Positions 6,345 to 44,251 of a stretch of 44,251 nucleotides of DNA are shown here, piece after piece. Under the pieces are notes generated by a model, which saw nothing but the letters and a program-made list of their open reading frames with translations, searched no databases and was not told the DNA's origin. Source of the DNA: Alphaproteobacteria bacterium. GTDB taxonomy: Bacteria > Pseudomonadota > Alphaproteobacteria > CAAHEQ01 > UBA3637. The DNA is taken from the NCBI GenBank assembly GCA_028696805.1, contig JAQVGI010000004.1, positions 1-44,251 of the forward strand. Direction: 5' to 3'. Made by a program: the position numbers and the translations under genes. Each line of letters opens with the position of its first letter. Within the stretch, counting starts at the first letter, position 1.

Positions 6345-8828
6345 TTATTTGCTCCGCATTTTGGCCTGCAAAAGGGCGACCGCTTCGTCCAGCGTCGGGA
6401 CGCCTTCTTTCGCGGAAGCCATGATCTTGCGCCATTTGACATACGGCCCGTATTTTCCGGTCTGGTAGGTGATGTCGGCGTCGTCCCAGCGGCCGACGAG
6501 CGTCGCTTTCTTCCTGGCGTCCGCGCCGGCCAGCAGCTCCACCGCGCGCGCCAGCCCGATGGTCAGCACATCGTCCGCGGGTTCCAGCGACTTGTATGTC
6601 CTGTTCATCCGGACATACGGGCCGAATTTGCCGAGGCCCGCCTCGACCGGCTCTTTCGTATCGGGATGGATGCCCAGCGCGCGGGGCAGGGAAAGCAGTC
6701 GGACGGCCTGGCCGATGTCGACGGATTCGGGAGCGGTTCCCTTGGGCAAGCCGGTGCGCTTGGCCTCCTTGCCGGCGCCGGCCTGGGCATACCAGCCGTA
6801 GGGGCCTTTTTTGACGACGACATCCCGGCCGTTTTCATCTTTGCCCAAAGCGTAGGACTTGACCTCGTCGGATGACGCCGCCGGTTCGTCCGCCGTGCCC
6901 GTTGGCGCCGCCAGCGCGAACTGCTTCGTGTAGGTGCATGTCGGATAAGCCGAGCAGCCGATGAACGCGCCGAACCGCCCGACGCGCAGCGAGAGCCGGC
7001 CCGTCTTGCATTCGGGGCACACGCGGCTTTCGTCGGTCGGGAACAGGTGCTTTTCCAGCGATTGTGCGACCCTGTCCAGCACTTCCCCCATCTTGTGCGG
7101 CTCGACGGCTTTCAATGTCGCGGAAAAGGTTTTCCAAAAATCGCTTAAAACATCGCGCCACGCCGTTTCGCCGGCCGTGATGTCGTCCAGCTTGTTTTCC
7201 AGGCCGGCCGTGTAGTCGTATTGGACATAGCGCGTGAAATAAGCCTCCAAAAAGGCGGTGACGATGCGGCCCGTGTCCTCGGGGACGAATCGCTTTTGAA
7301 CCAGCTTGACATAGTCGCGCTCCTGCAATACGGACAGGATTGTCGCGTATGTCGACGGCCGGCCGATGCCCAGCTCTTCCAGGCGTTTGACGAGGCTGGC
7401 CTCCGAAAAGCGCGGCGGCGGCTCGGTGAAATGCTGGTCGGCGTGGACGGCCAGCGTGTCCAATCCCTCGCCGGTGTCCATCGGCGGCAGGACGGCGTTG
7501 TCGTCGTCATCGTCGGCTTCCTTGCTTTTGTCGTCGATGTCTTCCTTGTAGATTTTGATGAATCCTGGGAAGGCGATGGTCTGCCCCGTCGCGCGCAGCT
7601 GCAAGGTATTGTCTGCGGACGGAATGTCGATGCCGACCTTGTCCAGCACCGCGCTGGCCATCTGGCAGGCGACGGCGCGCTTCCAGATCAGGTCGTAGAG
7701 TTTGCGCTGGTCGGCGGTCAGGGCGCCGGCGATTTTGTCGGGATGACGCGCGGCGTTTGTCGGGCGGATGGCCTCGTGCGCTTCCTGGGCGTTTTTGGAG
7801 TTGTTCTTGTAAAACCGCGGCGTTTCGGGGAGGTAATCCTTGCCGTATTCGGTTTCGATAAGGGCGCGGATGGACGCGATGGCTTCCTGCGACAACGCGA
7901 CGCTGTCCGTGCGCATGTAGGTGATCAAGCCGGTCGTTTCGCCGCCGATGTCGACGCCTTCATACAGCTGCTGGGCGACCTGCATCGTTTTTTTGGCGCC
8001 GAATCCCAGCTTGCGGGAGGCCTCCTGCTGCAATGTGGAGGTCGTGAACGCCGGCGCGGGGTTGCGCTTCGTCTGCTTGCGCTCGATGGCGCCGACGGAA
8101 AAGCGCGCGTCCTCGACCCGCTTTTTGACATCCCCGGCGATCGAGCCGTTCATCAGGTCGAACTTGCCGAGCTTTTTGCCGTCCACATGGGTCAGCTTGG
8201 CGTTGAATTGCGCCGCGCGGAGGGTGTTCAGGTCGACATCGATTCCCCAGTATTCCTGCGGCCGGAACGCCGTGATTTCGTCCTCGCGCTCGCAGATCAG
8301 GCGCAGGGCGACCGACTGCACGCGGCCGGCGGATTTCGCGCCGGGCAGTTTGCGCCACAGCACGGGGGAGAGCTGGAACCCGACCAGGTAATCCAGCGCG
8401 CGCCGCGCCAGGTAAGCCTCCACCAGCTTCATGTCGATGTCGTGCGGGTGCGCCATCGCGTCCAGAATTGCGGACTTGGTGATTTCGTGGAAAACGACGC
8501 GATGCACGGGAAAATCCGCGCGCAGTTTTTTGCGGCGCTTTAATTCCTGCACGACATGCCAGGCGATGGCCTCTCCCTCGCGGTCGGGGTCGGACGCCAG
8601 GTAGAGCGCCTCCGCCTTTTCAAGCTGCCTGGCCATTTCTCGGACGACTTTGTCGCCACGCGCCTGCACTTCCCAATCCATCGCGAAATCCGCGTCCGGC
8701 CGCACCGATCCGTCCTTGGCCGGCAAATCCCGGATGTGCCCCATGCTGGCCATCACATGGTAGTCCTTGCCCAGGTATTTGTTGATGGTTTTGGCCTTCG
8801 ACGGCGATTCCACAATCACCAGCTTCAT
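6345..8828 (-). CDS. topA: DNA topoisomerase I (type IA)
   Basis: The 827-aa enzyme relaxes negative supercoils by single-strand passage. It starts MKLVIVESPSKAKT with the Toprim domain (ASDPDREGEAIAWH carries the metal-binding acidic residues). The active-site tyrosine is in YMRTDSVALS. One zinc finger-like module (CPEC... GCSAYPTC) and several Topo_C repeats (GPYGWY, GKYGPYVK) follow. The frame is open upstream to 9230, but ATG 8828 is the start: it has GGAGGA seven bases upstream and overlaps the dprA stop as ATGA, so the two are translationally coupled. topA is last in the plsY-dprA-topA operon. Confidence 0.97.
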   Translation of the reverse strand: MKLVIVESPSKAKTINKYLGKDYHVMASMGHIRDLPAKDGSVRPDADFAMDWEVQARGDKVVREMARQLEKAEALYLASDPDREGEAIAWHVVQELKRRKKLRADFPVHRVVFHEITKSAILDAMAHPHDIDMKLVEAYLARRALDYLVGFQLSPVLWRKLPGAKSAGRVQSVALRLICEREDEITAFRPQEYWGIDVDLNTLRAAQFNAKLTHVDGKKLGKFDLMNGSIAGDVKKRVEDARFSVGAIERKQTKRNPAPAFTTSTLQQEASRKLGFGAKKTMQVAQQLYEGVDIGGETTGLITYMRTDSVALSQEAIASIRALIETEYGKDYLPETPRFYKNNSKNAQEAHEAIRPTNAARHPDKIAGALTADQRKLYDLIWKRAVACQMASAVLDKVGIDIPSADNTLQLRATGQTIAFPGFIKIYKEDIDDKSKEADDDDDNAVLPPMDTGEGLDTLAVHADQHFTEPPPRFSEASLVKRLEELGIGRPSTYATILSVLQERDYVKLVQKRFVPEDTGRIVTAFLEAYFTRYVQYDYTAGLENKLDDITAGETAWRDVLSDFWKTFSATLKAVEPHKMGEVLDRVAQSLEKHLFPTDESRVCPECKTGRLSLRVGRFGAFIGCSAYPTCTYTKQFALAAPTGTADEPAASSDEVKSYALGKDENGRDVVVKKGPYGWYAQAGAGKEAKRTGLPKGTAPESVDIGQAVRLLSLPRALGIHPDTKEPVEAGLGKFGPYVRMNRTYKSLEPADDVLTIGLARAVELLAGADARKKATLVGRWDDADITYQTGKYGPYVKWRKIMASAKEGVPTLDEAVALLQAKMRSK

Positions 8829-9943
8829 ATGTCCTCCAGAGTCATGATCAGCGAAACCCGGCCGCCGTGATACCTTTCCAGCCGGCCGGCCAGTTCCAAT
8901 TCCACCAGGACGATCTGCACCAGCTGCGCCGGCAAATCGCACGCGCGGATCAGCTCGTCGACCGACACGATGTCCGCCCCTAAATTGGATAGGACGACAT
9001 CGTGCGCCGCGGTCATATCCGCATCGTCGGGCGGAGCGGGGCGGTATGCGGCGGCATCCTGCGGCTCCGTCAGGCGGAAATCCGGCGCCTGTTCCAGCAC
9101 GTCCGTGATGTCGTTGATATGCGACACCAGCGTTGCGCCGTCTTTGATGAGTTTGTTGGGGCCTTGGCTGCGCGGATCCACGGGGGATCCGGGAACGGCG
9201 AAAACCTCGCGCCCTTGGTCGGCGGCACAACGCGCCGTGATCAGCGAGCCGGATTTTTCCTGCGCTTCGATGACGAGGACCCCTTGCGCCAGCCCCGAAA
9301 TGATGCGGTTGCGGCGCGGGAAGTTCTTGGGGTTCAGCGGGCTTCCGAACGTCAACTCGGAAACGATGCAGCCTTTTTCGGCGATTTGAGTGTAGAGATC
9401 TTTGTTTTCCGGCGGGTAGATGTCGTCGACGGCGGAGCCCAGGACGGCGATTGTCTTGCCGCCGGCTTCCAGCGCGCCGGCATGCGCTGCCGCGTCGATT
9501 CCTTTAGCCAGGCCCGACACGACGGCATAGCCTTTCCCGGCCAGTTCTTTCGCGAAATGCCGCGCGATGTTTTTGCCGTTCAGCGACGCGTTGCGCGTTC
9601 CGACGATTGCGACGGCCGGCAAGTTCAATGCGTCGATGTCCCCCTTGACGAACAAGACCGGCGGCGCGTCGGACAGCGCCCGCAACACCTGCGGATATTT
9701 CGGCTCGTATGCGCAGACGATTTCGGCGCCACATGCATCCGCCGCTTGGAACTGGCGCTCTACTTCCGCATCGGCGGGCAGGCGTATCGGCTTTTTGCGC
9801 CCACCGGCGGCGGCCAGCTGATTCACATGCCGGACAGCCTCGGCGGCGGAGCCGTAAAAGCCGATCAAATGCCTGAAGCCGACCGGTCCGATGTTTTCAC
9901 CGAACGCCAGGCGCATCCACTCTTTTTTGTCGGCGGGAATCAT
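8825..9943 (-). CDS. dprA: DNA-processing protein DprA
   Basis: DprA binds incoming single-stranded DNA and loads RecA during natural transformation. The 372-aa protein has an N-terminal SAM-like region, the central Rossmann fold (VGTRNAS, VVSGLAKGIDAAAH, FPRRNRIISGL, EKSGSLITAR, VFAVPGS) and a C-terminal winged-helix domain with SVDELIRACDLPAQLV. I start it at 9943 (MIPADKKEW) because this ATG overlaps the plsY stop as ATGA and begins the conserved domain. The gene order plsY-dprA-topA is a familiar bacterial arrangement. Its presence alone does not prove competence. Confidence 0.95.
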   Translation of the reverse strand: MIPADKKEWMRLAFGENIGPVGFRHLIGFYGSAAEAVRHVNQLAAAGGRKKPIRLPADAEVERQFQAADACGAEIVCAYEPKYPQVLRALSDAPPVLFVKGDIDALNLPAVAIVGTRNASLNGKNIARHFAKELAGKGYAVVSGLAKGIDAAAHAGALEAGGKTIAVLGSAVDDIYPPENKDLYTQIAEKGCIVSELTFGSPLNPKNFPRRNRIISGLAQGVLVIEAQEKSGSLITARCAADQGREVFAVPGSPVDPRSQGPNKLIKDGATLVSHINDITDVLEQAPDFRLTEPQDAAAYRPAPPDDADMTAAHDVVLSNLGADIVSVDELIRACDLPAQLVQIVLVELELAGRLERYHGGRVSLIMTLEDI

Positions 9944-32868: not shown

Positions 32869-32887
32869 GCACTCACTTTTCGGTTCG

Positions 32888-32964
32888 GGGCGTGTAGCTC
32901 AGTTGGTTAGAGCATTACGTTGACATCGTAAAGGTCGTTAGTTCGAGTCTAATCACGCCCACCA
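32888..32964 (+). tRNA. tRNA-Val (GAC)
   Basis: Acceptor GGGCGTG/CACGCCC, D arm GCTC...GAGC, anticodon stem TTACG/CGTAA with loop TTGACAT (anticodon GAC), T arm GTTAG-TTCGAGT-CTAAT, discriminator A and encoded CCA. Its 3' end marks the start of the AT-rich island and is partly repeated at 41384-41395. Confidence 0.96.
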
Positions 32965-32966
32965 TT
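32955..32966 (+). repeat. Candidate attL in the tRNA-Val 3' end
   Basis: ACGCCCACCATT spans the last acceptor bases, CCA and two bases beyond. The identical 12 bases occur at 41384-41395. The position in a tRNA 3' end is classical for integration. Confidence 0.55.
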
Positions 32967-32969
32967 TAT

Positions 32970-33007
32970 AAAATCGGAAAGTTATACTTCCGATTTTTAT
33001 TTTTTTC
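32970..33007 (+). terminator. Terminator after tRNA-Val
   Basis: AAAATCGGAA and TTCCGATTTT pair around an 8-nt loop (AGTTATAC) and are followed by TATTTTTTT. Good intrinsic terminator. Confidence 0.8.
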
Positions 33008-33327
33008 TGAATGTTTTATCCTTCCTACAAAATACGCACTGTTGTTGTTTTACATGTGTGACTTGGAAAGTGCGACATGTTTTACTGTACTAGGGCTATT
33101 TTTACCCAAAATCCCCCAAATGTATACATTCTGGTTGTGACCCTATATTTTTAAGTCACAATCCGATATCCCTTTATTTTCGCTGTTTTTAATTTTTCTA
33201 TATTCTTAAATTTTCGATGTAGCTTTTCCATAGGATATACGACATAGAATTAAATATTTTTCACTTTTTTTCATTTTTTGAGAACGATTTTTTTATTTTT
33301 TGACTTGTTCTGTTTTGGAGGTTGAAA
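33008..33327. other. AT-rich gap without a recognisable gene
   Basis: No credible open frame was seen. An inverted repeat TTGTGAC...GTCACAA (33135-33141 and 33155-33161, 13-nt centre) is the only clear structure. A TTGACT at 33299-33304 is too close to the next gene's ribosome site to be its -35. Confidence 0.5.
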
Positions 33328-33480
33328 ATGACTGAAATAGAAAAGTTTGTAAAATTGATATTGCCAGAATTTATTGTTTTTATAAAAGAGCAAGAAAATG
33401 AGGAAGATGTACAGAAAGAACTGGATAAATCTAAAAATCCAAGCATTCATTGTGTTCAGAAAGGAATTGAAAATGATTGA
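33328..33480 (+). CDS. Small hypothetical protein (50 aa)
   Basis: ATG 33328 is preceded at six bases by GGAGG and encodes 50 residues, starting MTEIEKFVKLILPEFIVFIK and ending GIEND, with a hydrophobic N-terminal part and a charged tail. The stop lies 8 bases inside the start of a second small frame (ATG 33473), as in a real operon. It reads antisense to the open extension of the glycosyltransferase fragment, whose sequence there makes no sense as protein. No family recognised. Confidence 0.5.
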   Translation: MTEIEKFVKLILPEFIVFIKEQENEEDVQKELDKSKNPSIHCVQKGIEND

Positions 33481-33514
33481 AGATGATTTGAAAGCTCTTG
33501 CCACAATGACATTA
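33473..33514 (+). pseudogene. Start of a second small gene, cut off at a junction
   Basis: ATG 33473 follows AAAGGAATTGAAA and overlaps the previous stop. Its first 14 codons (MIEDDLKALATMTL) look like genuine protein; the frame then runs on antisense to the GT2 fragment. The join near 33510 suggests a rearrangement. Confidence 0.35.
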
Positions 33515-33747
33515 GCTTCTTTTAAGCCTGCATTTCTGGCAGATGCTAAACCTCCATTTTGTTTATTAATAATTTTTATTCGTGTATCTTTTTTGGAATA
33601 CTCATTTAAAATATTTAGTGAATTATCCTCACTTCCATCATTTACGCAAATAATTTGCAAATCTTTGTAGCTTTGGTTGCAAATACTATCCAAACATCTA
33701 TTTAAAGTTTTTTCTCTATTATAAATAGGAACAATTATACTAATCAT
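33514..33747 (-). pseudogene. N-terminal fragment of a GT2 glycosyltransferase
   Basis: From ATG 33747 (GGGAGGATC ribosome site, ATGA overlap with the licD end) the frame encodes a GT-A start, MISIIVPIYNREKTLNRCLD, VNDGSEDNS and GGLASARNAGLKEA (to about residue 78). In intact GT2 proteins GEYI-x-F-x-DSDD follows; here the sequence instead turns into an unrelated, low-complexity stretch to 33271. The donor-binding DxD and the acceptor half are missing, so it cannot be a working transferase. Confidence 0.8.
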
Positions 33748-34662
33748 AAAAGATCCTCCCAATCAGTTGAATTAAATGTAAAACAAATTTTCTTTTCTGG
33801 CAATTTTGCCATCAACGATTGAACTTTTTCTTTCGAATAATTGGCTTTAGCAATTTCCGATAAAATCAAAGCAATATCATGCAATGTATCATCATTCCAA
33901 TTATAGCGTGAAATTTCTTGTAATCCTAAACGAATACCATATTCCATAAAAAAGGAATCCATTATCAACAGATTCTTTTCCGTTGAATAATTTTGTTTTT
34001 TGTTTTAGAGCTTTACAAATATCATCAAAAGAACAAACAGGCTGTTGTAATGGAAGATTTGTATGAAAATCACATTTGATGGAGGCTTTTATATTGTTCA
34101 AATGAACGATAAATTGTTCTTTTTCAGTACCAGTTAAGGGGTCTTTTTGAAAACCGATGTCAATTGGGAAAATATCCACTTGGGCTGGTGTGTTTTTATA
34201 ATATAAGCGCGTAATTTCACTACGGGCATATTTAAAACCATTTTGGGAAAATTCGTCATCTAATATGTTGAATAGTTTTTCATAATCATCTCGCATCATG
34301 CAAATATCGATATCATCATCCCAAGGAATAAAGCCATTATGTCTGATATGACCAATTAATGTTCCAGAATCTATCCAATATGTAATATTGTGTTTTTTAC
34401 AGATTTGATCAAAATAATTCAATAAGGCTACAGAACAATCTTGAACCATTTTTAAGTTTCCTGTCGCAGGTGGCATCTTTGTGATATCAACAGTTAAACA
34501 CTGCATTCTTTTGATGGCTTCTAAATTGCATTGTATCTCCTGTAACAAAAGGGGATTTTTGCTAAAAGAAAATTGTTTTGAGCCATATTTTTTTCTAAAA
34601 TGATGGCGATTTTTCTTTTTGGGAATAAAGAAACATATTAAATTACATAAAGTTTTATTCAC
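33744..34662 (-). pseudogene. LicD-family protein, frameshifted
   Basis: LicD proteins transfer phosphocholine or similar groups to surface glycans. The frame from 34662 has the family core TYWIDSGTLIGHIRHNGFIPWDDDIDICMMRDDY, cited here as DSGTLIGHIRH and WDDDIDI, then QVDIFPIDIGF, and runs out of frame at about 33950. A second frame (33968-33744) continues with MEYGIRLGLQEI and a helical C-terminus ending DWEDLL. The two join at a run of six A (33948-33953 on the plus strand). Together they would make about 305 aa. Either decay, an assembly error in the homopolymer, or slippage could explain it. Overlaps the GT2 gene by 8 bp. Confidence 0.75.
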
Positions 34663-35776
34663 TTTTTCCTCCTATTCTAAATTTAATCCAAGCTGGACGT
34701 TCAAATTTTCTTCCTTTACTTATTTGAACACCTAAAAGTTGAATTAACCACGATCCGGAACAGATATGAATAGAAAACAAAAAACGTCGTAGGAGTTTGT
34801 TTGAATAAAGGCTTCTAATTAGATTCTTTCGGGCAATATGAATACAATTTTTTAATCGAACTTTACCAAAATAACCTTTTTTTAGATTATAAATGTCGTC
34901 TAAATTGAAAATTTCTGAAAAAGCATTCAAATATTCCTTTTTATGTTTCCAATAAATGTTTTTATAAAAACCACTACAGGCCAAATAAGAATGATAATAA
35001 AATTCCTCTTTTAGGTCTTCAAACAGGCCATATTTTTGTAAAATCTTCTTCCCTTCTAAGCACTGCTTCGGCATCAAAATTAATCGTTCATCTCGACGAA
35101 TAGTGGATGAATTTTGTCCATCTTCCATACGATAATGAACAAGTGGTTCTTTGACAACGGCAATACGATTAGCACGACACATTACCTCAATCATAAACGG
35201 AAAATCTTGATAACTGGCCGAGCGTGTTTCAATTAACGGAATTTGCTTTACAAAATCAGCTTTATACAAAGATGACCAAATACTGGCGTGAAATGCAATA
35301 ATTAGAGGATATTCTTTCACGGTAAAGGGGGTATCAGGAGCATCATTTAAATCTTGATAACGAGATTTCCAAACTTTATTTTGGCGTTCTTTTGCCAAGA
35401 AAGAATTGTATATATAAAATCCACCTTTTATTATATCGGCATTTGTAGCAAGGGCTTTCTCATACAATTTTTCATACATCGTTGGTTCGATCCAATCATC
35501 GGATTCAATAATTCCAATGTATTCACCTTTGGCCAGTTCTATGCCGTGGTTGACGGCCCGACCATAGCCACCATTAGGTTGGTGAACAGCAACAATGCGC
35601 GGGTCTTTTTTGGCATATTCGTCCACGATTTCGGGGCATTTATCCTTCGAACCGTCATCAACCAAGATAATCTCAATATCTTTAAGAGTCTGAGCTAAAA
35701 TACTGTCTACACATTGATGTAAATATTTTTCGACACCATAAATCGGGACGACTACGGATACTTTGGGTTTATTCAT
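34655..35776 (-). CDS. GT2-family glycosyltransferase
   Basis: The 373-aa protein is an intact GT-A fold transferase: VSVVVPIYGVEKYL, LVDDGSKDKCPEI, NGGYGRAVNHGIELAKGEYIGIIESDDW with the metal-binding region, and a C-terminal helical half typical of transferases that add sugars to surface polysaccharide on a lipid carrier. No membrane span is evident. The first 120 residues are closely similar to the transferase at 36466-37470. The sugar and acceptor cannot be read. The gene starts 3 bp after the glf remnant. Confidence 0.9.
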   Translation of the reverse strand: MNKPKVSVVVPIYGVEKYLHQCVDSILAQTLKDIEIILVDDGSKDKCPEIVDEYAKKDPRIVAVHQPNGGYGRAVNHGIELAKGEYIGIIESDDWIEPTMYEKLYEKALATNADIIKGGFYIYNSFLAKERQNKVWKSRYQDLNDAPDTPFTVKEYPLIIAFHASIWSSLYKADFVKQIPLIETRSASYQDFPFMIEVMCRANRIAVVKEPLVHYRMEDGQNSSTIRRDERLILMPKQCLEGKKILQKYGLFEDLKEEFYYHSYLACSGFYKNIYWKHKKEYLNAFSEIFNLDDIYNLKKGYFGKVRLKNCIHIARKNLIRSLYSNKLLRRFLFSIHICSGSWLIQLLGVQISKGRKFERPAWIKFRIGGKSE

Positions 35777-35779
35777 TCT

Positions 35780-36376
35780 TTAACCTTGCAAAGGAATACC
35801 TTGATATTTATCTTGGAAATATCGGTCATCTCGGCTGATATACACCGGCACACGCCCTGTAACGGCAGGGTCCAAATCTTCCGGTTTCATCCCCCATTGT
35901 TTTAAAGTGTAATATAAAAAGATTTTTTCGTAAATATAATCAGCCAAAAATTCCAAATCCTTATCGCCAGTCCCACGCAATTGTAAAATAGGAACCTTGA
36001 CATTAAAACCGAATTTTTCAATTAACTTTGTTTCTAATTTATCAGCGATGGATTTGGGAAAAACCTGATGAATGGAATTGAGGTTAAAGGGAATAGGCAC
36101 CAACTGACCGTCAATCAGGCCTTTAACCGTATGCATATACGGATTCCATTTGGTGAACTGAGACACAAAATCCCAAACATTTTTCAAGTTCGTATGAAAA
36201 ATATGTGTGCCGTATTGATGAATGCAAATACCGTTATGATCATAGTAATCATAACAATTGCCGCCAATGTGATTTTTTGCATCAATAACAACGACTTCTT
36301 CGTTCAATTCTGTTGCAATTTTATGGGCAAGGGTCGCACCTGAAAAACCACAACCGACAATTAAATTTTTAACCAT
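35780..36376 (-). pseudogene. glf: UDP-galactopyranose mutase, N-terminal half only
   Basis: The enzyme converts UDP-galactopyranose to UDP-galactofuranose with FAD. MVKNLIVGCGFSGATLAHKIA and DAKNHIGGNCYD are the FAD-binding start, followed by GTHIFHTN and the substrate-region LKQWGMKPEDLDPAVTGRVPVY. The frame ends at residue 198 in YFQDKYQGIPLQG, exactly where intact proteins (about 370 aa) continue with GYT. The missing half contains the arginine and other FAD/substrate residues, so activity is unlikely. The truncation is at the junction to the GT2 gene, which suggests a deletion. Confidence 0.85.
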
Positions 36377-36465
36377 TATATTAGTATCCTTTTTGATTTT
36401 TTTATTTATGTTCTGATGTTATTCTTGTTCCACGAAAAAGGGACAATGCCTTTATTTACAAGATA

Positions 36466-37470
36466 TTATCTTTTGATTCTCTTCAATAATCTATTTGGAA
36501 AATGTTTTAATTTATACAGAAATAGAAATCCGATAGGATGAAACATAATAGACATAAGTCGTTTATAGTTCTTTTTCTTGAAACAATCTTTTTTTATGAG
36601 TCCTTGATTATAAAGTTCTTTAAACTCTTCGGAAAAGCGCTTTAAAAATTGTCTTTGTATTTTTCCAGATAATCTCTTAAAATTCCACATATATGTGTTA
36701 AATCTTAAAGCACAAAGTAATCCGGAAACAGAATTAAAAATGCCTTGCTCTTCTGCCCATTTAAAAATGCTTTGCCATTCATCACAAACGCAGAAGATTT
36801 TTTTCGTATCTTTGACGGAAGAACCCGCATTATCCGTTCTATAGTGGTACAGGGGTTTATCTGTAAAATAAGTTTTTTCTGAAGCCAACAGTGTTTTAAA
36901 ATGAAAGCCTGTATCCTGATAAGATGCCCCAGGCGTTTCTAACAATTGGATATTATTTTTAATTAGGAACTCTTTTTTATACAATCCTGTCCAAATTGAG
37001 GGGCCAATGTTCATTGCCAAAAGATTGTTTGTTGGTTTTATAGTGGAATTGGCAATATCGGAAGGAATAATATCTGCTTTTTGGTTTTTATTTTTAAGCC
37101 CTTGATATTTAAAAAAGTCAGATTTTACGAAATCTGCACCGCTTTTTACGGCATGTTGATAGAGAGTTTCAAACATGTCTGTTTCTATCCAATCATCTGA
37201 ATCGATAATACCGATATATTCTGCTTGTGCTTTTTCTATTCCGATATTAATAGAATGTCCATAACCTGAATTTTCTTTGTGAATGACGGTGATTCGAGAA
37301 TCCTTCTTCGCATATTCATCACAAATTTCAGGACATTTATCCTTAGAACCATCGTCAACCAAGATAATCTCAATATCTTGAAGTGTTTGAGATAAAATAC
37401 TATCAACGCATTGACATAAATATTTTTCTACACCATAAATGGGCATAACGATAGATACTTTAGGCATCAT
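36466..37470 (-). CDS. GT2-family glycosyltransferase (paralogue)
   Basis: The 334-aa protein has the same GT-A start as the gene at 34655-35776 (VSIVMPIYGVEKYLCQCVDS, LVDDGSKDKCPEICDEYAKKD, YIGIIDSDDW), and a different C-terminal half. AAGGAG lies before the ATGATG start. It is probably the first gene of the polysaccharide cluster. Product unknown, but the cluster with licD and glf points to a decorated galactofuranose-type surface glycan. Confidence 0.9.
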   Translation of the reverse strand: MMPKVSIVMPIYGVEKYLCQCVDSILSQTLQDIEIILVDDGSKDKCPEICDEYAKKDSRITVIHKENSGYGHSINIGIEKAQAEYIGIIDSDDWIETDMFETLYQHAVKSGADFVKSDFFKYQGLKNKNQKADIIPSDIANSTIKPTNNLLAMNIGPSIWTGLYKKEFLIKNNIQLLETPGASYQDTGFHFKTLLASEKTYFTDKPLYHYRTDNAGSSVKDTKKIFCVCDEWQSIFKWAEEQGIFNSVSGLLCALRFNTYMWNFKRLSGKIQRQFLKRFSEEFKELYNQGLIKKDCFKKKNYKRLMSIMFHPIGFLFLYKLKHFPNRLLKRIKR

Positions 37471-37542
37471 AAATCTCCTTATAGATTGGATTTTTTCATG
37501 AAGAGATTATATATGAACTTATTTCAAATAGCAACATAAAAT

Positions 37543-38535
37543 TTACTTCTCGTTTAAAACGCCTTTTTTGACTAATATCCGGTATCTGCCAGCAATTGCA
37601 TTCTCTTTTATTCCCAAAATTTTACTCATTTCATGAAATGTTAATCCTTGAGCACGCAATTCTAGAATTTTATTTGTTTTTCCATATGTTGCAGAATCAC
37701 AGCGCTCAATTCGTGGACCTTTTATTAAATTCAGTTGTCGTATTTTATCCATCATGGTTGATGGGTGGACTCTAAATATCTCTGCAATCTGAATATAGGT
37801 AAATCCATCATTGAACAATTTTTCTATTTTTTCTTTATGTTTATCTAGTTGGCTTACCTGTCGAGGCGTTTTTCTTGTAAGCCCCATCTTTTTTATTTTT
37901 CTTGAAAGTGTATCTGAGTGGCATTTTAATTCAAGAGCCATGTTTTCGAAAGACATCCCTGCATTAAAAAGACGAATGATCTTTTCTTCTTTTCCATCTA
38001 ATTTTCGAGAGACAGGAATATTTATCTTTTTTAAATATAAAAATCTCCAAAGTGTAGACAGTGCAACGTTGAATTTTCTGGCAATTTTTATTTTTGACAT
38101 ACCTGAATTTAATAATTTTTCGATTTCTTTCGAGTGTTTGGTTAGACAGCTGGAAGAATCAATGGGAAATGATAGAATGTTAGGTTTACTTTGATGATTT
38201 GGTACATTTTTATAACGAAGACTATCATAGCTTTCCCAATCATAAATGCCCAAATTTCTTCTCCTAGAAAGGAGCGTGCCTGGATGAACATTTAATTTTT
38301 CGGCAATTTTTGAATATGAAAGTCCGGATTTTTTTAATTCTAATATTTTATAAGCGCTTATAAATTTATAGTGAACCCTAGGCAGTCGTTTTAAATTAAG
38401 ACGATGAATTTCACGATACAAAAGGCTTTTAGATATATTTAATTTTTTGCAAATTTGCCGAAGAGTTTTGTCAGAGTGAAAAAGTTTTTTTAATTTTTTA
38501 TCAAATTTTTCATCTGGTATGAATTTTTTATTCAT
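37543..38535 (-). CDS. Protein of six tandem helix-turn-helix units
   Basis: The 330-aa protein is almost wholly made of units of 38-42 residues of the form I-x-x-L-x3-G-x-S/T-x3-IA-x-x-L-x-V-x3-TL-x3-I-x-x-L-x-L. Approximate positions are 11-51, 61-97, 133-171, 180-218, 230-268 and 283-325. Examples are GLSYSKIAEKLNVHPGTL, GMSKIKIARKFNVALSTL and GFTYIQIAEIFRVHPSTM. Each resembles the resolvase or sigma-like trihelical HTH. It is very basic. Such an array should bind a long or repeated DNA site; no catalytic domain is visible. It is last in the recombinase/ParB/RepB-like operon and coupled to it by ATGA. Confidence 0.8.
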   Translation of the reverse strand: MNKKFIPDEKFDKKLKKLFHSDKTLRQICKKLNISKSLLYREIHRLNLKRLPRVHYKFISAYKILELKKSGLSYSKIAEKLNVHPGTLLSRRRNLGIYDWESYDSLRYKNVPNHQSKPNILSFPIDSSSCLTKHSKEIEKLLNSGMSKIKIARKFNVALSTLWRFLYLKKINIPVSRKLDGKEEKIIRLFNAGMSFENMALELKCHSDTLSRKIKKMGLTRKTPRQVSQLDKHKEKIEKLFNDGFTYIQIAEIFRVHPSTMMDKIRQLNLIKGPRIERCDSATYGKTNKILELRAQGLTFHEMSKILGIKENAIAGRYRILVKKGVLNEK

Positions 38536-39395
38536 AAGAGGCTATCCATTTCTACAATTCGTTCAAAACGTTGGTATATATCTGTCTCATTTTCTTTAAT
38601 AAATTTATTAATTTCAGCATTTTGAAAAAGCTGATGCAAATATGCTTTGATGACGGTTAGATCACCGACATTTTTACCATAGTCATCCTCCATTAGATGG
38701 TATTCCTTTTGCAATCGTGAAACTTCGTTTTCTAATTTAGATGTTTCTTCTGTGCTGGTTTGTCTTGCTTTGCGAATAGGATTAATTAATTGATTATCCG
38801 AACTGCCAAGCCAAATAGCCCGTGCAAATTTTGCCGAGTAATCAGAGCTACTGGCCATATAGCTTAGAGCCTCTATTTGGCGTTCAGGAGTCATACGCTT
38901 TAAGTAATCAAAAACTTGTTTATTAATTACTTTATCTTTTAATAATTCTATAGCGGCTGGGCAAATACCATCAAGAAGAGATTTTTTTCTGATAATGCTT
39001 GATACCTCGATATTTAATGCTTTTGCAATTTTTTCTGCTGAAGCTCCTTTTTCAATAGCCTTCATAATCATTCGATGTTCCTGAACGTTGGCCATTCGAT
39101 TGATGTGCTTATTATATGTAAATGTTTCATCATCTTTTGCCAATAAACATTGAACGGTTGTTTCTCCTAATATTTTTAGAGCTTCAACCCTTAGATGGCC
39201 GTCAACCAAAGTGTAAATCCCTTCATTTTCATATACCATGGGAGGTTCAATAATTCCAACCGATTTGATAGATTCTAAAATAACCTTAAATTTACTATTT
39301 AAATTTATTGTTTCTAAAATTTTCTTACTGTATTGAATTTGACTAATGGGAAGTTCAATAATTTGATTTTTAAATGCAACTTTTAAATTACTCAT
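38532..39395 (-). CDS. ParB N-terminal/RepB C-terminal-like DNA-binding protein
   Basis: The 287-aa protein has a ParB/Sulfiredoxin-like N-terminal domain (LESIKSVGIIEPPMVYENEGIYTLVDGHLRVEALKILGE, cited as IIEPPMV and LVDGHLRVEALK), a KorB-type HTH (GASAEKIAKALNIEVSSIIRK) and a C-terminal part like plasmid RepB (RMTPERQIEAL... FARAIWLGS) with a coiled coil (220-245). Plasmid ParB binds centromere sites, but there is no parA here. I start it at MSNLKVAFK (39395), overlapping the previous stop by 8 bp. Family assignment is from pattern memory. Confidence 0.75.
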   Translation of the reverse strand: MSNLKVAFKNQIIELPISQIQYSKKILETINLNSKFKVILESIKSVGIIEPPMVYENEGIYTLVDGHLRVEALKILGETTVQCLLAKDDETFTYNKHINRMANVQEHRMIMKAIEKGASAEKIAKALNIEVSSIIRKKSLLDGICPAAIELLKDKVINKQVFDYLKRMTPERQIEALSYMASSSDYSAKFARAIWLGSSDNQLINPIRKARQTSTEETSKLENEVSRLQKEYHLMEDDYGKNVGDLTVIKAYLHQLFQNAEINKFIKENETDIYQRFERIVEMDSLL

Positions 39396-40257
39396 TGTTT
39401 TCGATCCTATCAATTAAACATTTTGGAATTGCTTCTAATTTTTCAGCTCGTAAAAGTGTCCGGAAGTTATTATTTCTGTATAAAACCTTGAATCCATGAA
39501 CTAGGGAAACAAGAGCTTGTTGGGCATTGTTGGCTTTATTAATAAGAAGTTTTCTTTTTTCAATTTCTTTTTGAAAAATTTTGTTTAAGTCGGTAACTGA
39601 AAGTTTTTTGCCGCCGCGGCTAGTTAAAGATTTTCCATTGCGCTTTCGGAGTTCTATTAATTTTTGCATAAAACTTAAATTTTTTCCTCTCAGAATATTT
39701 CGTTCATAGGCATCTTGAAGTATTTCACGAATCTCTGTATCGCTTGCTTGTGCTATTTTTATAGCGGTATTAATTGGAATTTTTTGTTTTTCAACCGCAT
39801 CAATTAATCTTGTCTCACCTTTATCCAATAAAATACCTATTTGAGCTGTATATTCTCTACTTAGTCCTGTTTTTTCTGAAATTTCTTGGGTTGTGTAACC
39901 ATGATCCTTTAGGCGTTTAATTCCTTGAAGTAATTCGGCTGGATTATAGTGACGCCTAGCTATATTTTCAACTAAACTCATAATCAAAGCATCTTCTTGG
40001 GTAACATTTGTTATAATGGCTGGAATTTCTTTTTCTCCGTTGGCCAAATAAGCCTCTAGTCGGCCTTGTCCACACACAAGGTCGTATTCGTATCCATCAA
40101 CAGGTTTTTCTTTTTTGCAAACCGTGATAGGACGTTTAAGTCCTACTTCCTCTATGTTTTGCGTGATTTCTCTTCTAATGAGTTCATTTCGATCTCGTGG
40201 ATTTAAAATGAATATTTTTGATGTTTCAATCATTTGTAATTCTTTTGTTTGAGACAT
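39388..40257 (-). CDS. ParB/RepB-like partition-type protein
   Basis: The 289-aa protein shows a ParB N-terminal domain: IFILNPRDRN, NIEEVGLKRPITV, YDLVCGQGRLEAYLANGEKEIPAII and the ENIARRHYNPAELLQGI arginine motif, followed by an HTH (GYTTQEISEKTGLSREYT) and a basic C-terminal region (SLTSRGGKKLSVTDLNKIF). The canonical GERR box reads GQGR. Start at 40257 follows GGGAGGTAGC. With the next gene it forms a ParB pair of the kind seen beside serine recombinases in mobile elements. No parA homologue is present. Confidence 0.8.
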   Translation of the reverse strand: MSQTKELQMIETSKIFILNPRDRNELIRREITQNIEEVGLKRPITVCKKEKPVDGYEYDLVCGQGRLEAYLANGEKEIPAIITNVTQEDALIMSLVENIARRHYNPAELLQGIKRLKDHGYTTQEISEKTGLSREYTAQIGILLDKGETRLIDAVEKQKIPINTAIKIAQASDTEIREILQDAYERNILRGKNLSFMQKLIELRKRNGKSLTSRGGKKLSVTDLNKIFQKEIEKRKLLINKANNAQQALVSLVHGFKVLYRNNNFRTLLRAEKLEAIPKCLIDRIENNE

Positions 40258-40260
40258 TAT

Positions 40261-40603
40261 CTATGCTACCTCCCTTAATTGAATAATTTTAGATAATTCT
40301 AATAGATAATTTAAATTGTCATACCGATAGGAGTCTATCAGGTCTTGATTGCTTTCTTTCAGTTTTAAATCATTCGTTTTAAAATCCAAAGAGGGAAGTA
40401 GATAGTAGTCATAAGCCGTTTTATTTACGCTGTCCATTCTGACGGCTACTGTAATATCAGGATTTAATGAGGTATCAAAACGAACTTTCCACATAGACTC
40501 GAATTGCCGCCATTTGATTTTCTGGAGAGTATTTTTGGTGTTCTGTGGACATACGGATGTAAACCGCCGCCTTTTTTTTACCATTTTTGTTGAACAAGTC
40601 CAT
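40261..40603 (-). pseudogene. Serine recombinase with large internal deletion
   Basis: From ATG 40603 (AAAGGAG upstream) the frame reads KKAAVYIRMSTEHQKYSPENQMAAI, here cited as VYIRMSTEHQKYS, which is the start of the resolvase catalytic domain with Ser in RMSTEHQ. It stops after RVYVESSF. An overlapping frame resumes near 40500 with FDTSLNPDITVAVRMDSVN, DYYLLPSLDF and RYDNLNYLLELSKI, a conserved C-terminal tail of the same recombinase type. About 400 residues, including the rest of the catalytic core, are gone. It heads the operon of ParB/RepB-like and multi-HTH genes. Confidence 0.75.
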
Positions 40604-40729
40604 AATTTCTCCTTTATTTTCAATAATCCGACTTATTAACTTGCTATTCCTGTTTATAAATTGAATATGCAATTGCGTGTGTTCTAAACCCGCAAGTCTT
40701 ATTGATAATTATAACAAAGGAAAAATTAA

Positions 40730-41230
40730 ATGTCGAATACATATATGTACCCAGATTGGGACCCAAAAGATGCTGATAATTCAGGTTTAAATAACGATCA
40801 AAAATTAACTAAACAGGTGTTGAAAATGCTACGAATTGAACATCCAATTAGCACAAGTAAATATATTGCAATTACTTTGGGCTTGAAAAATCATTATAAA
40901 CCTAAACATTGGCTTTATCGTAAAAGTGTGATTAATGCCTATGAATTCTTACAAATATTGACATCTTATGATAGAATAAGATGCTATTTTGGATTTAAAA
41001 AAATCCCAAATTCTAGGAATCCATTTATCCGGAAAAAAAATACGGAAGAAATTCAAAAAAAAATATTGCAGATTGTTGAAAAAAGTCCTAATCTAAGTCT
41101 TAGAAGCTTAAGTCATGCGCTGGGTGTGTCGGTCAAAGCAACAGAGTATTCGCTCCAATTATTAAAGGAAAAAGGGGAAATCATCCGGATTGGGAGTAAG
41201 CGAGGAGGTGCTTGGCAAATAAAAAAATAG
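40730..41230 (+). CDS. Winged-helix DNA-binding protein, divergent from the recombinase operon
   Basis: The 166-aa protein has a C-terminal winged helix (about 108-166): EIQKKILQIVEKSPNLSLRSLSHALGVSVKATEYSLQLLKEKGEIIRIGSKRGGAWQI, cited as LSLRSLSHALGVSVKAT and GEIIRIGSKRGG, much like the C-terminal HTH of AlbA/RecG-like ATP-binding regulators. The N-terminal half (QVLKMLRIEHPISTSKYIAITLGL) may hold a second HTH. AAAGGAAAA precedes the start. Divergent placement suggests it regulates the operon, but this is inference. Confidence 0.7.
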   Translation: MSNTYMYPDWDPKDADNSGLNNDQKLTKQVLKMLRIEHPISTSKYIAITLGLKNHYKPKHWLYRKSVINAYEFLQILTSYDRIRCYFGFKKIPNSRNPFIRKKNTEEIQKKILQIVEKSPNLSLRSLSHALGVSVKATEYSLQLLKEKGEIIRIGSKRGGAWQIKK

Positions 41231-41260
41231 CGCGTGGAAGAGTTATTACAATAAAGGATG

Positions 41261-41292
41261 GAGCCTGTGTCGGCTCTGTTCTTTTGGTTTTT
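41261..41292 (+). terminator. Terminator after the winged-helix gene
   Basis: GAGCC-TGTGTC-GGCTC (41261-41276, with one extra base) followed by TGTTCTTTTGGTTTTT. Confidence 0.6.
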
Positions 41293-41312
41293 CAATAAGA
41301 TGTGTGTATAAT
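41284..41312 (+). promoter_or_regulatory. Candidate promoter upstream of the pilin/VWA gene
   Basis: TTGGTT (41284-41289), 17 bp and a perfect TATAAT (41307-41312). The start codon is about 185 bp away, giving a long leader that contains the putative attR. Confidence 0.45.
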
Positions 41313-41383
41313 AGGGAGCACGATTATGGAGATTTGAGGTATGAACCCCCGTTTTGTATATCCATTTCGAGTTTTGCAAAGAA

Positions 41384-41395
41384 ACGCCCACCATT
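41384..41395 (+). repeat. Candidate attR, copy of the tRNA-Val 3' end
   Basis: ACGCCCACCATT repeats 32955-32966 exactly. A TTCGAGT as in the tRNA T loop also lies nearby (41367-41373), at different spacing. The GC-rich base composition resumes right after. Confidence 0.5.
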
Positions 41396-41423
41396 CCTCC
41401 CGCCTGACGCGCTTCCCATTTTT

Positions 41424-41449
41424 TTTCAAAAAACCCTTGATTTTTGAAA
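41424..41449. repeat. Inverted repeat at the island edge
   Basis: TTTCAAAAA (41424-41432) and TTTTTGAAA (41441-41449) form a 9-bp stem. It may have served as a terminator of the original tRNA-Val transcript before the island entered. Confidence 0.35.
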
Positions 41450-41497
41450 TCGAACGGCATAGGATAGGGAATATCTTAATTGCGAGGGGGCTGTTCC

Positions 41498-44251
41498 ATG
41501 TCCATGTCATTCCATCATCGGTTTTCTTGTCGGGCGCGGCGGTCATTCGAATCCGGGCGGACGATGTTCGAGATATTCAGCGTCCTGGCGATTATGGCGT
41601 TTTTGTCCATCCTGACGCTTCTGGGCTATCGGTATGCGGTCCAGTATCATCATGCGACCGAAATCATCGGGACGGCCAATGTCGAGCGGACGTCCGCGCT
41701 GGTGTCATGGGAGACGAACAAAACCTTTACGGATGCGAGCGGCAAAATCCTGGATTACGGCTGGGTCCGCAGCCGGCTGTCGGACGACACGGGGTTCTAT
41801 GTGACGGTCGAGAATATTCCGGGAGATGTGTGCGCGCAGATTTTAAAGCGCCGCTGGGACGCGCCGGATCAGTATGTCGTCGATGAGAAAATCGTCAATA
41901 ACTTCGATACAAGCGTTTGCTACGATGAAAATGACAAGCCGCGCCAGATAACAATGAGCTTCGTGTTCGGATGGGCGGAGGGTTCTTCTTTTATTCCTTC
42001 CAGCGAATGCGATTTGACCGAGCCGTGCTACTATGACTATGAGAATAAAAGGGAAAGCGAGCAGTTCCGCGTTCTCGAAGACAACGGATTATGCACCTGC
42101 AAATGCCCCGAGCCCAACAGCATGTATGACAGCGCGACGGGAAAATGCGAGTGCGAGCCGCCGCAGTCCGAATTGACGGCCGGCGCATGCGTCTGTCCGT
42201 CGCCGAAGACATATCATGACGAAGCGAAGAACGAATGTGTCTGCGATCCCGACACAACGCCGACAGGCGCGGATCCGGACACCTGCGCATGCCCGGCAGT
42301 CCCGCATGTCTACCTGACCTCGGGGAATAAATGCATCACATGCGCCGATCCGAAAATTGTTTGGGACGCGGCGAATGAAAAGTGCGTGTGCGACCCGGGC
42401 ATAACATGCCCTGCGGACAAGAAAAAGAATGCGGACTGCGATTGCGTCTGCGATCCGCCCGTTACCTGTTCGGAGGATCAGATAGAGGGGGGCGATTGCG
42501 ATTGTGTTTGCGACCCAGCTGTCGTCTGCCCGGGAAATTTGCAAAAAGATGCGGCTTGCAAATGCCGGTGCCTGCTGGATTGTTCGAAGAACACCGACGG
42601 CAAGACGTTTTTGGATGCGGCGAAATGCGCGTGCGCGTGCGATCCGGAGATCGAATGTCCGGAAGGCCGGAAAAAAGATGAAAACTGCCAATGCTCGGGA
42701 TGTTCTTTGAGCTGCGCCAACCGCGCGGACGGCAAAACGCGGCTGGATAGCGGTAGCTGCGCGTGCGTGTGTCCGGTCGACATGAAGCCGTCCGAGGCGG
42801 GCGTCTGCTGTCCCGTGGATGCGCAGGGGAATATCGTGATGGGCGCCGAGCCGGCAACCTTGGCGGCGCGGTGCTGCCGTGCGGACGAAGAGGCTGTTGC
42901 CCGGGCGGATGGAAACAAGGTTTGCTGTGCGAAGGTTTCCGGTATTCCGAACGCGAACTATTACGACGAAGCAAATCGCCGGTGCGTGCCGCTCGGCTAC
43001 TGCGAGCATAAATATGACGGCGTTGCGTTCATCATCGATAACTCCGGATCAATGTCGCAGAGCGGGAAGTTGACGAAAGTCAAAAATGCCATCAAAGGCG
43101 CTCTTGCCAAGTTGCCGGCAAAGATGAAAGTGGGGGTTTATGCTTTCACGGATTCGGCATCCACCAAGCTCTCCTATGGAAATCATTCTGTTCTTGAGAT
43201 TGAACAAGCTGTCAGTGGAATGGGCCACTACGGAGTTACCTGCATTTCCTGCGGGCTGGATGTGGCGTGGAGCAATACATACGCACAGGGGCACAGACCT
43301 ATTCTGATCGTTTTTTCGGATGGTTTGGAAAACAGGGGAGATGCCCGCAGCAAGATGGTTTGGATGAAATCCCAGTGCGGCAACCTGAGAGCTTATAGTG
43401 TCGGATTATCTAAAAACCCGATATTGGGCTTTATCGCGACCGGAGGCGGCTACTTTACGCAAACCAGCGCGGACGGCGTCTCCGGTATTTTCAGTCGCCA
43501 TGTTGACAATGACTTGAACTGCCTGCCGCAGCCGAACAGGATGATCTGCGACAGCACGAGCATAACGAACGTTTCATGCGGCGCAGGATTCTACCAGCAG
43601 AATGGCGTTTGCACGACATGTCCGTCCCATTCGACATGCAATGGCATCGTGTTCGCCTGCGATACCGAATATTACAAGGATAGCAATACCTCCTGCCGCA
43701 AGTGCCCGTCCGGCGCGACGTGTACTGCGGTCTCGTTTACCTGCAATCCCGGATATTACAAGGATAGCAATACCTCCTGCGACAACTGCCCGTCCAACGC
43801 GACGTGTACTGCGGTCTCGTTTACCTGCAATCCCGGATATTATACCAATACGGCCGAAACGGGATGCACGAAGTGCCAAGCGGGATACGCCTGTCCGGGC
43901 GGCTCGACGCGGACGCAATGCACCGCCGGGTATTATGCGGCGTCCGGGGCCTCTTCTTGCACGCCTTGTCCGGGCGGCAAGTGGCAGAAGGATGCGAGGC
44001 AGAGCTCCTGCGACAACTGTCCGTCCAATGCAACCTGCGCCGGAACCGGAAATACGACTTTCGTTTGCAATAGCGGGTATTACAGGGCCAGCGCGACGGC
44101 GACGGCATGCACGAGATGCCAAACGGGATACGCCTGCCCGGGCGGATCCGCGAAGACGCAATGCACGGCGGGATATTATGCGGCGGCCGGGTCGTCTTCC
44201 TGCACGGCTTGCCCAAGCGGAAAATGGCAGAAGGACGCGGGTCAGGGCTCT
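41498..44251 (+). CDS. Prepilin-like, VWA-domain, cysteine-rich surface protein (3' part missing)
   Basis: The frame is open for 918 codons to the window edge. ATG 41498 has GAGGGGG seven bases upstream. The first residues resemble a type IV prepilin: a basic leader ending in Gly20, then RTMFEIFSVLAIMAFLSILTLLGY with Glu25 at position +5 and a hydrophobic helix. A pilin-like head follows (to about 165), then a region very rich in CDP/CxC motifs (about 166-505). A von Willebrand A domain (about 508-680) has the MIDAS motif DNSGSMS (Asp514) and VFSDG. From about 690, GCC2/GCC3 (ephrin-receptor-like) repeats such as CTAGYYAASGASSCTPCPGGKW run on, cited as GYYAASGASSCTPC. Probably an assembled surface adhesin; disulfides would form outside the cytoplasm. 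Partial. Confidence 0.85.
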   Translation, partial: MSMSFHHRFSCRARRSFESGRTMFEIFSVLAIMAFLSILTLLGYRYAVQYHHATEIIGTANVERTSALVSWETNKTFTDASGKILDYGWVRSRLSDDTGFYVTVENIPGDVCAQILKRRWDAPDQYVVDEKIVNNFDTSVCYDENDKPRQITMSFVFGWAEGSSFIPSSECDLTEPCYYDYENKRESEQFRVLEDNGLCTCKCPEPNSMYDSATGKCECEPPQSELTAGACVCPSPKTYHDEAKNECVCDPDTTPTGADPDTCACPAVPHVYLTSGNKCITCADPKIVWDAANEKCVCDPGITCPADKKKNADCDCVCDPPVTCSEDQIEGGDCDCVCDPAVVCPGNLQKDAACKCRCLLDCSKNTDGKTFLDAAKCACACDPEIECPEGRKKDENCQCSGCSLSCANRADGKTRLDSGSCACVCPVDMKPSEAGVCCPVDAQGNIVMGAEPATLAARCCRADEEAVARADGNKVCCAKVSGIPNANYYDEANRRCVPLGYCEHKYDGVAFIIDNSGSMSQSGKLTKVKNAIKGALAKLPAKMKVGVYAFTDSASTKLSYGNHSVLEIEQAVSGMGHYGVTCISCGLDVAWSNTYAQGHRPILIVFSDGLENRGDARSKMVWMKSQCGNLRAYSVGLSKNPILGFIATGGGYFTQTSADGVSGIFSRHVDNDLNCLPQPNRMICDSTSITNVSCGAGFYQQNGVCTTCPSHSTCNGIVFACDTEYYKDSNTSCRKCPSGATCTAVSFTCNPGYYKDSNTSCDNCPSNATCTAVSFTCNPGYYTNTAETGCTKCQAGYACPGGSTRTQCTAGYYAASGASSCTPCPGGKWQKDARQSSCDNCPSNATCAGTGNTTFVCNSGYYRASATATACTRCQTGYACPGGSAKTQCTAGYYAAAGSSSCTACPSGKWQKDAGQGS
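43670..43837 (+). repeat. Tandem 84-bp repeat in the surface protein gene
   Basis: Two nearly identical 84-bp units (43670-43753 and 43754-43837), each encoding YYKDSNTSC... CPS-A-TCTAVSFTCNPG. The differences are few and clustered. Confidence 0.85.
43865..44251 (+). repeat. 243-bp repeat in the surface protein gene (second copy incomplete)
   Basis: The unit starting TGCACGAAGTGCCAA at 43865 recurs from 44108, 243 bp (81 codons) later. It encodes CT-x-CQ-x-GYACPGGS, QCTAGYYAA, and ACPSGKWQKDA-type segments. The second copy runs off the window, so the array probably continues. Confidence 0.8.

Follow-up and report, generated by a model that had tools for sequence, protein, structure and literature searches.

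The window analysed here, 44,251 nucleotides of contig JAQVGI010000004.1 from an Alphaproteobacteria bacterium (assembly GCA_028696805.1), carries four genes lying head to tail on the minus strand at 37543-40603: a frame-shifted and internally deleted serine recombinase (rec), ParB, RepB and a six-HTH protein (mHTH). Do these genes form one coupled operon, as the initial annotation held? At a probability of about 80%, the stretch is instead a place where two independent modules meet, within an island that was acquired horizontally, inserted at tRNA-Val and is now decaying: module A, a recombinase element, and module B, a surface-polysaccharide operon headed by mHTH. Module A (38532-41230) would comprise a divergent HTH regulator, the recombinase (dead here), ParB and RepB, and module B would span 33901-38535. 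The features around the junction are as follows.

40730-41230, plus strand: divergent HTH gene, 37.5% identical over 168 aa to its positional counterpart in locus L063; fourth gene of the recombinase element
40708-40736, minus strand: sigma-70-like promoter match TCGACA-17-TATAAT, 11 of 12 positions, with TG, facing the rec remnants, ParB, RepB and mHTH
40475-40603, minus strand: rec 5' remnant, 42 aa; Resolvase PF00239, E=2e-5; RMSTE motif
40261-40479, minus strand: rec 3' remnant, in another frame than the 5' remnant; 43-60% aa identity (58% for one) to the C-termini of intact homologues
39388-40257, minus strand: ParB; TIGR00180 65.6 bits (above its cut-off), PF07506 54.7 bits
38532-39395, minus strand: RepB; PF07506 92 bits; last gene of the recombinase element
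37543-38535, minus strand: six-HTH protein mHTH, 330 aa; six tri-helical units; full-length relatives in five other genomes; profile match to 2lvs

Profile matches and coordinates bear out the gene identities, their order and overlaps on the minus strand, and the loss of the recombinase as first described. Measured against the intact 517-aa homologue in L063 (faecal record MT837206), rec has lost about 400 of 517 codons and carries a frameshift; its 5' remnant retains 81% aa identity to the L063 protein over 31 residues. ParB starts 3 bp past the rec stop, the first ATG of RepB (39395) gives an 8-bp overlap with ParB, and the RepB stop lies over the mHTH start in a 4-bp overlap (ATGA). ParB and RepB are near full length, with a RepB tail shorter than in L063. 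At 32% GC, three open frames of about 290-330 codons each are not due to chance. The promoter at 40708-40736 is the joint best of 21 matches; shuffled sequence averages 17.5, so it is treated as a match only. The gene at 40730-41230 and the polysaccharide genes behind mHTH had been overlooked in the initial annotation. PADLOC returned only weak matches on the window and no defence system.

The first three genes recur without the fourth. Using profiles built in this analysis, we found Rec-ParB-RepB as a stand-alone unit in 18 other loci of three phyla (Geobacterales, Erythrobacter, Verrucomicrobia, other Alphaproteobacteria, plasmids, a viral contig and the faecal record; two of them, L007 and L014, are broken or cut by a contig end), and mHTH is present at none. 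The earlier remark that ParB-like genes accompany serine recombinases in mobile elements is well founded. A divergent HTH gene lies upstream of rec in 13 of the 18 loci, namely L063 and 12 further by profile match; the profile was made from five sequences including the window's own, and the matches in L003-L006, L009, L056-L058 and L067 are independent of it. The window has the same layout, with remnants of a large serine recombinase directly before ParB and RepB on the same strand, overlapping or nearly so, and upstream of rec the gene at 40730-41230, which is the counterpart of the divergent HTH gene. Genes past RepB differ among loci (Fic, a UvrD-like helicase, hypothetical proteins, a metallophosphoesterase-like frame). 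DNA similarity among seven Geobacterales copies stops at the RepB stop or within about 30 bp of it, and the end of RepB is therefore taken as the edge of the element. Given the deletion and frameshift in rec, the window element is a decayed copy, not an active or mobile one. No ParA ATPase gene lies beside ParB in the window, and none is listed next to the triplet at the annotated plasmid loci; ParB and RepB are probably DNA-binding helpers of the recombinase. A limited search of the open-access literature found no description of this four-gene recombinase/ParB/RepB/HTH element of three phyla.

The junction lies inside an AT-rich island of 8.4 kb (32955-41395), with GC of about 32% inside and about 60% outside. 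Its remaining features are these.

32955-32966, plus strand: attL-like 12-bp repeat ACGCCCACCATT, at the 3' end of tRNA-Val (32888-32964)
33300-33520, plus strand: remnant of sequence that once preceded a large serine integrase, now lost; similar to locus L086
33901-34662, minus strand: putative LicD-like gene, probably truncated, 253 aa versus 323 aa in a relative; 40% over 162 aa to L048 3181-4152
34655-35776, minus strand: glycosyltransferase, 44% to L048 4155-5240
35780-36376, minus strand: glf, putatively UDP-galactopyranose-mutase-like, 3' half deleted; 198 of 373 aa; 96-97% aa and 86% DNA identity to L047/L048
36466-37470, minus strand: glycosyltransferase directly downstream of mHTH, 46% to its positional equivalent in L047/L048
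41384-41395, plus strand: attR-like copy of ACGCCCACCATT, an exact direct repeat of the attL-like copy

By our arithmetic, a 12-bp match tied to both a tRNA end and the GC transition is expected far less than once per hundred such searches. Window positions 32887-33517 are 81% identical to the tRNA-Lys/integrase locus L086 of a relative (G021), where a 566-aa serine integrase follows the matched region; that integrase is gone from the window. Together with the loss of the 3' half of glf and the short LicD-like gene, this indicates that the island is decaying, and it is most likely a horizontally acquired insertion at tRNA-Val. Relatives carry a serine integrase of 560-580 aa adjoining tRNA-Lys or tRNA-Pro. 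Outside the island, a large GC-rich open frame (41480-44251) continues past the end of the window; over 77 aa, its N-terminus shares 32% identity with the gene at 7603-9144 of locus L054, which stands there beside an inverted-repeat pair.

The neighbourhoods of mHTH are of a different kind from those of the recombinase element. The family, defined here by full-length similarity and six HTH units, includes the window protein and seven full-length relatives in five other genomes of the window's order, and ParB or RepB occurs at none of the seven loci. The loci are few and come from draft genomes, and the count leaves out the short HTH-array proteins of G019 and G020. The class of the host was deduced from GcrA-like matches and from the relatives. 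Within the order, 6 of 43 genomes bear mHTH, the window's own included; none was found outside the order in a class-wide sample of 337 genomes, and none in phage and plasmid records. The operon behind mHTH in the window is a surface-polysaccharide one, reading glycosyltransferase, glf fragment, glycosyltransferase and LicD-like gene. At L047 and L048 mHTH is followed by the same glycosyltransferase and glf genes, and at L049, L050 and L052 by other polysaccharide or glycosyltransferase genes; at L051 and L053 it comes after an autotransporter or YadA-like adhesin gene and not at the head of a polysaccharide operon. The number of units varies among relatives: a 176-aa form (L055 10194-10724), which heads a polysaccharide operon, matches units 1-2 and the last unit only.

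These companions bear on the idea that the recombinase element recently picked up mHTH as cargo, with mHTH now moving along with it and regulated by the divergent HTH protein. The junction does fall at the RepB stop, and a joint best-scoring promoter match at the element's divergent region faces mHTH. However, the polysaccharide genes behind mHTH are its companions elsewhere, which places it in its native operon, while no other copy of the element carries it and the recombinase here is dead. We regard recent capture as improbable.

Still less probable is the reading of the initial annotation, in which ParB, RepB and mHTH work as one functional module, for silencing, maintenance or site recognition, and have stayed under selection since the recombinase was lost. 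A survey of mHTH neighbours, which had been proposed as the check on this module, shows no ParB/RepB company elsewhere, the outcome that the initial annotation had itself named as refuting; the two parties are never together in 18 + 7 loci, and the neighbourhoods largely refute the idea. The triplet spans three phyla, whereas mHTH was not found outside the window's order in the 337-genome sample of the class. The tight overlaps, the intact frames and the common AT-rich composition speak for one module, but an identical ATGA overlap joins mHTH to an unrelated Xre gene at L047 and L048, and the decay of rec and glf is recent. Because the window mHTH begins with ATGA, a frame running into it from upstream in the appropriate register will always stop there. 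Fusion here would therefore look coupled without coupling, and the RepB/mHTH overlap is best read as a junction formed by insertion or fusion, not as conserved coupling. No mHTH operon like the window's turned up with an empty site for module A beside it, which leaves insertion, deletion and recombination indistinguishable as origins of the junction. Genes packed tightly enough to look like an 'operon' may still be a chimera of two modules, and a start/stop overlap is no evidence of partnership.

The initial annotation had also taken the survival of three frames beside a lost recombinase to suggest that they are still selected. This argument is weak. The glf fragment has a dN/dS of about 0.02 against both relatives (L047 and L048), a value like the one obtained for the two intact copies against each other; for the rec 5' remnant it is 0.065, on only 31 codons. 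Since strongly purified codon patterns persist in both remnants, the breakage of rec and glf looks recent; the intact neighbouring frames therefore needed no selection to have survived, and their survival is no evidence of function. For ParB, RepB and the divergent HTH gene the same comparison gave no estimate, as third positions have reached saturation relative to the nearest relative, and the window mHTH is too divergent from L047 for a trustworthy value. Two mHTH pairs among the relatives gave dN/dS of 0.15 and 0.13, indicating constraint there.

The surroundings of mHTH in the relatives show signs of invertible switches. At six of the seven loci mHTH has a serine invertase (about 200 aa) no more than about 3.5 kb away, the seventh locus being near a contig end. 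With one to eight resolvase matches per genome, we calculate a chance of a few percent per locus for such a neighbour. Three invertases tested against the Mpi model scored 225-264 bits, below its cut-off of 272. Immediately following mHTH in L049 (12733-13305), a resolvase-like protein of 190 aa lacks the customary YxRVST motif and may be an invertase that has lost catalysis. Neither the window nor its genome has an invertase gene, and no other resolvase was found in that genome.

Evidence of promoter inversion comes from L049 and L050, which are paralogues within a single genome. On both flanks their intergenic DNA is collinear, and the middle segment (about 14408-14552 in L049 and about 9513-9658 in L050), bounded by AACTAATATT (AACTAATGTT in L050) and AATATTAGTT and lying between 10-bp inverted repeats, has ends that match in opposite orientation. 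In L049 a promoter, TTGACT-17-TACAAT, faces mHTH, with its -35 inside the segment and its -10 outside; in L050 the TTGACT end is directed away, so that this promoter faces mHTH only in L049. L052 has inverted AAACCTTGGTTT/TAACCAAGGTTT sites (segment 9323-9458) and the promoter layout of L049. At L054, before a short HTH-array gene, repeats match at 22 and 21 of 24 positions, with a shuffle maximum of 19. The two pairs there (9155-9328 and 9527-9702) have AAACGTNCGTTT-like cores and resemble two invertible promoters; they lie between a large divergent gene and the 184-aa HTH-array gene, which is followed by ABC-exporter-like genes. Inverted repeats are weak at L051 and L053, and none were found at L055. 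Upstream of mHTH at L047 and L048, the closest operon relatives, we saw no clear invertible promoter, and the Xre gene is located there. A 127-bp perfect inverted repeat with a 131-bp spacer covers the start of the Xre gene at the contig end of L048 (8552-8936); it could be a real inversion or an assembly artefact, and was set aside as evidence of inversion. In the window, no inverted repeats rose above shuffles at 37400-41600, and matches to the Mpi-like site AAACGTNCGTTT were at chance level and were rejected.

An AlphaFold2 model of mHTH shows six tri-helical units (residues 9-45, 61-95, 132-168, 183-216, 231-267 and 287-323) arranged as beads on a string, with a pTM of 0.24. Owing to this arrangement, Foldseek gave no significant match to the model (best E 0.1); 2lvs ranked third, with a probability of 0.96. 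By profile, the CRISPR-repeat-binding protein 2lvs is the best match among solved structures (E=1e-10), and invertases are matched at about 1e-7 to 1e-10. Unit 3 aligns to invertase HTHs with scores of 81 and 80, compared with at most 73 to its sister units. Taken with the Cbp1-type match and the invertible-operon setting, this likeness makes a DNA-binding regulator or competitor at switch regions our best bet. On sequence grounds the protein would be built from invertase-type HTHs, and a regulatory role by itself stands at roughly even odds.

A competing proposal is that mHTH is an accessory of the invertase, acting in synapsis or as a competitor for its sites, which holds the switch in one orientation and does not regulate transcription. 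The closeness of unit 3 to invertase HTHs, the invertase at six of seven mHTH loci, and the resolvase-like gene lacking the usual catalytic motif that follows mHTH in L049 are all consistent with it. Against this, the window genome has mHTH and no invertase, though mHTH there may be a relic. We hold this role to be unlikely, and it is a variant of the module B mechanism that leaves the two-module verdict unchanged. Equally tentative is the broader suggestion that mHTH represents a new class of trans-acting regulator in small-genome alphaproteobacteria, whose members, made from phase-variable surface operons, would be HTH domains of invertase origin arrayed in tandem. By binding switch regions they might fix their own orientation or keep sister loci silent, an UpxZ-like role for an unrelated protein.

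In the two-module reading, such operons in related bacteria would be turned on and off by promoter inversion, carried out by an Mpi-type invertase. The likeliest action of mHTH is to bind DNA in the switch regions or close to them through its invertase-type HTH units, and it would control how its own operon or sister surface operons are expressed. The window has lost the invertible promoter, module A standing in its place, and the operon has for this reason most likely lost its switch; it would be readable only from the element's promoter or an internal one.

Several known systems resemble parts of this arrangement. Plasmids of Agrobacterium (pAt), Sphingobium, Aminobacter and Rhizobium carry an annotated serine recombinase with two RepB-C-terminal-domain proteins, sharing with the window the gene order, the near or true overlaps and the divergent HTH gene, with RepB about 39-42% identical; they differ in that the window recombinase is deleted and the downstream genes are others. 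Residues 25-165 of the window ParB align to the ParB/Noc CTPase-type partition protein Spo0J (1vz0, E=4e-15), with similar GxxR and EN-R-NP-E stretches. Unlike those proteins, it has no ParA gene in its module and a recombinase as operon partner. Cbp1 (2lvs; NF040595), which binds CRISPR repeats and tunes transcription there (PMC10883916), shares with mHTH an architecture of tandem HTH domains. We do not count mHTH as a Cbp1 member: it scores 70 bits against NF040595, where the cut-off is 140, has six units and not three, and is bacterial, with no CRISPR setting seen.

The closest parallel to the mHTH loci is found in the capsule loci of Bacteroides, which are controlled by Mpi and begin with UpxY/UpxZ leader genes (reviewed in PMC12632263). 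Both have an Mpi-like serine invertase, inverted repeats flanking a sigma-70 promoter, surface-polysaccharide operons and regulatory gene(s) at the operon start. The mHTH relatives differ in being alphaproteobacterial, in having invertase genes at the loci and repeat sequences that vary between loci, and in including adhesin operons; the window copy differs further, with neither invertase nor inverted repeats. A limited search of the open-access literature found no description of phase-variable surface operons with a tandem-HTH protein. The six-HTH gene thus leads to surface operons that are phase-variable, carrying invertible promoters and Mpi-like invertases, in small-genome alphaproteobacteria of one order, where a tandem-HTH protein, not UpxY/UpxZ, sits in the leader position that Bacteroides gives to those two.
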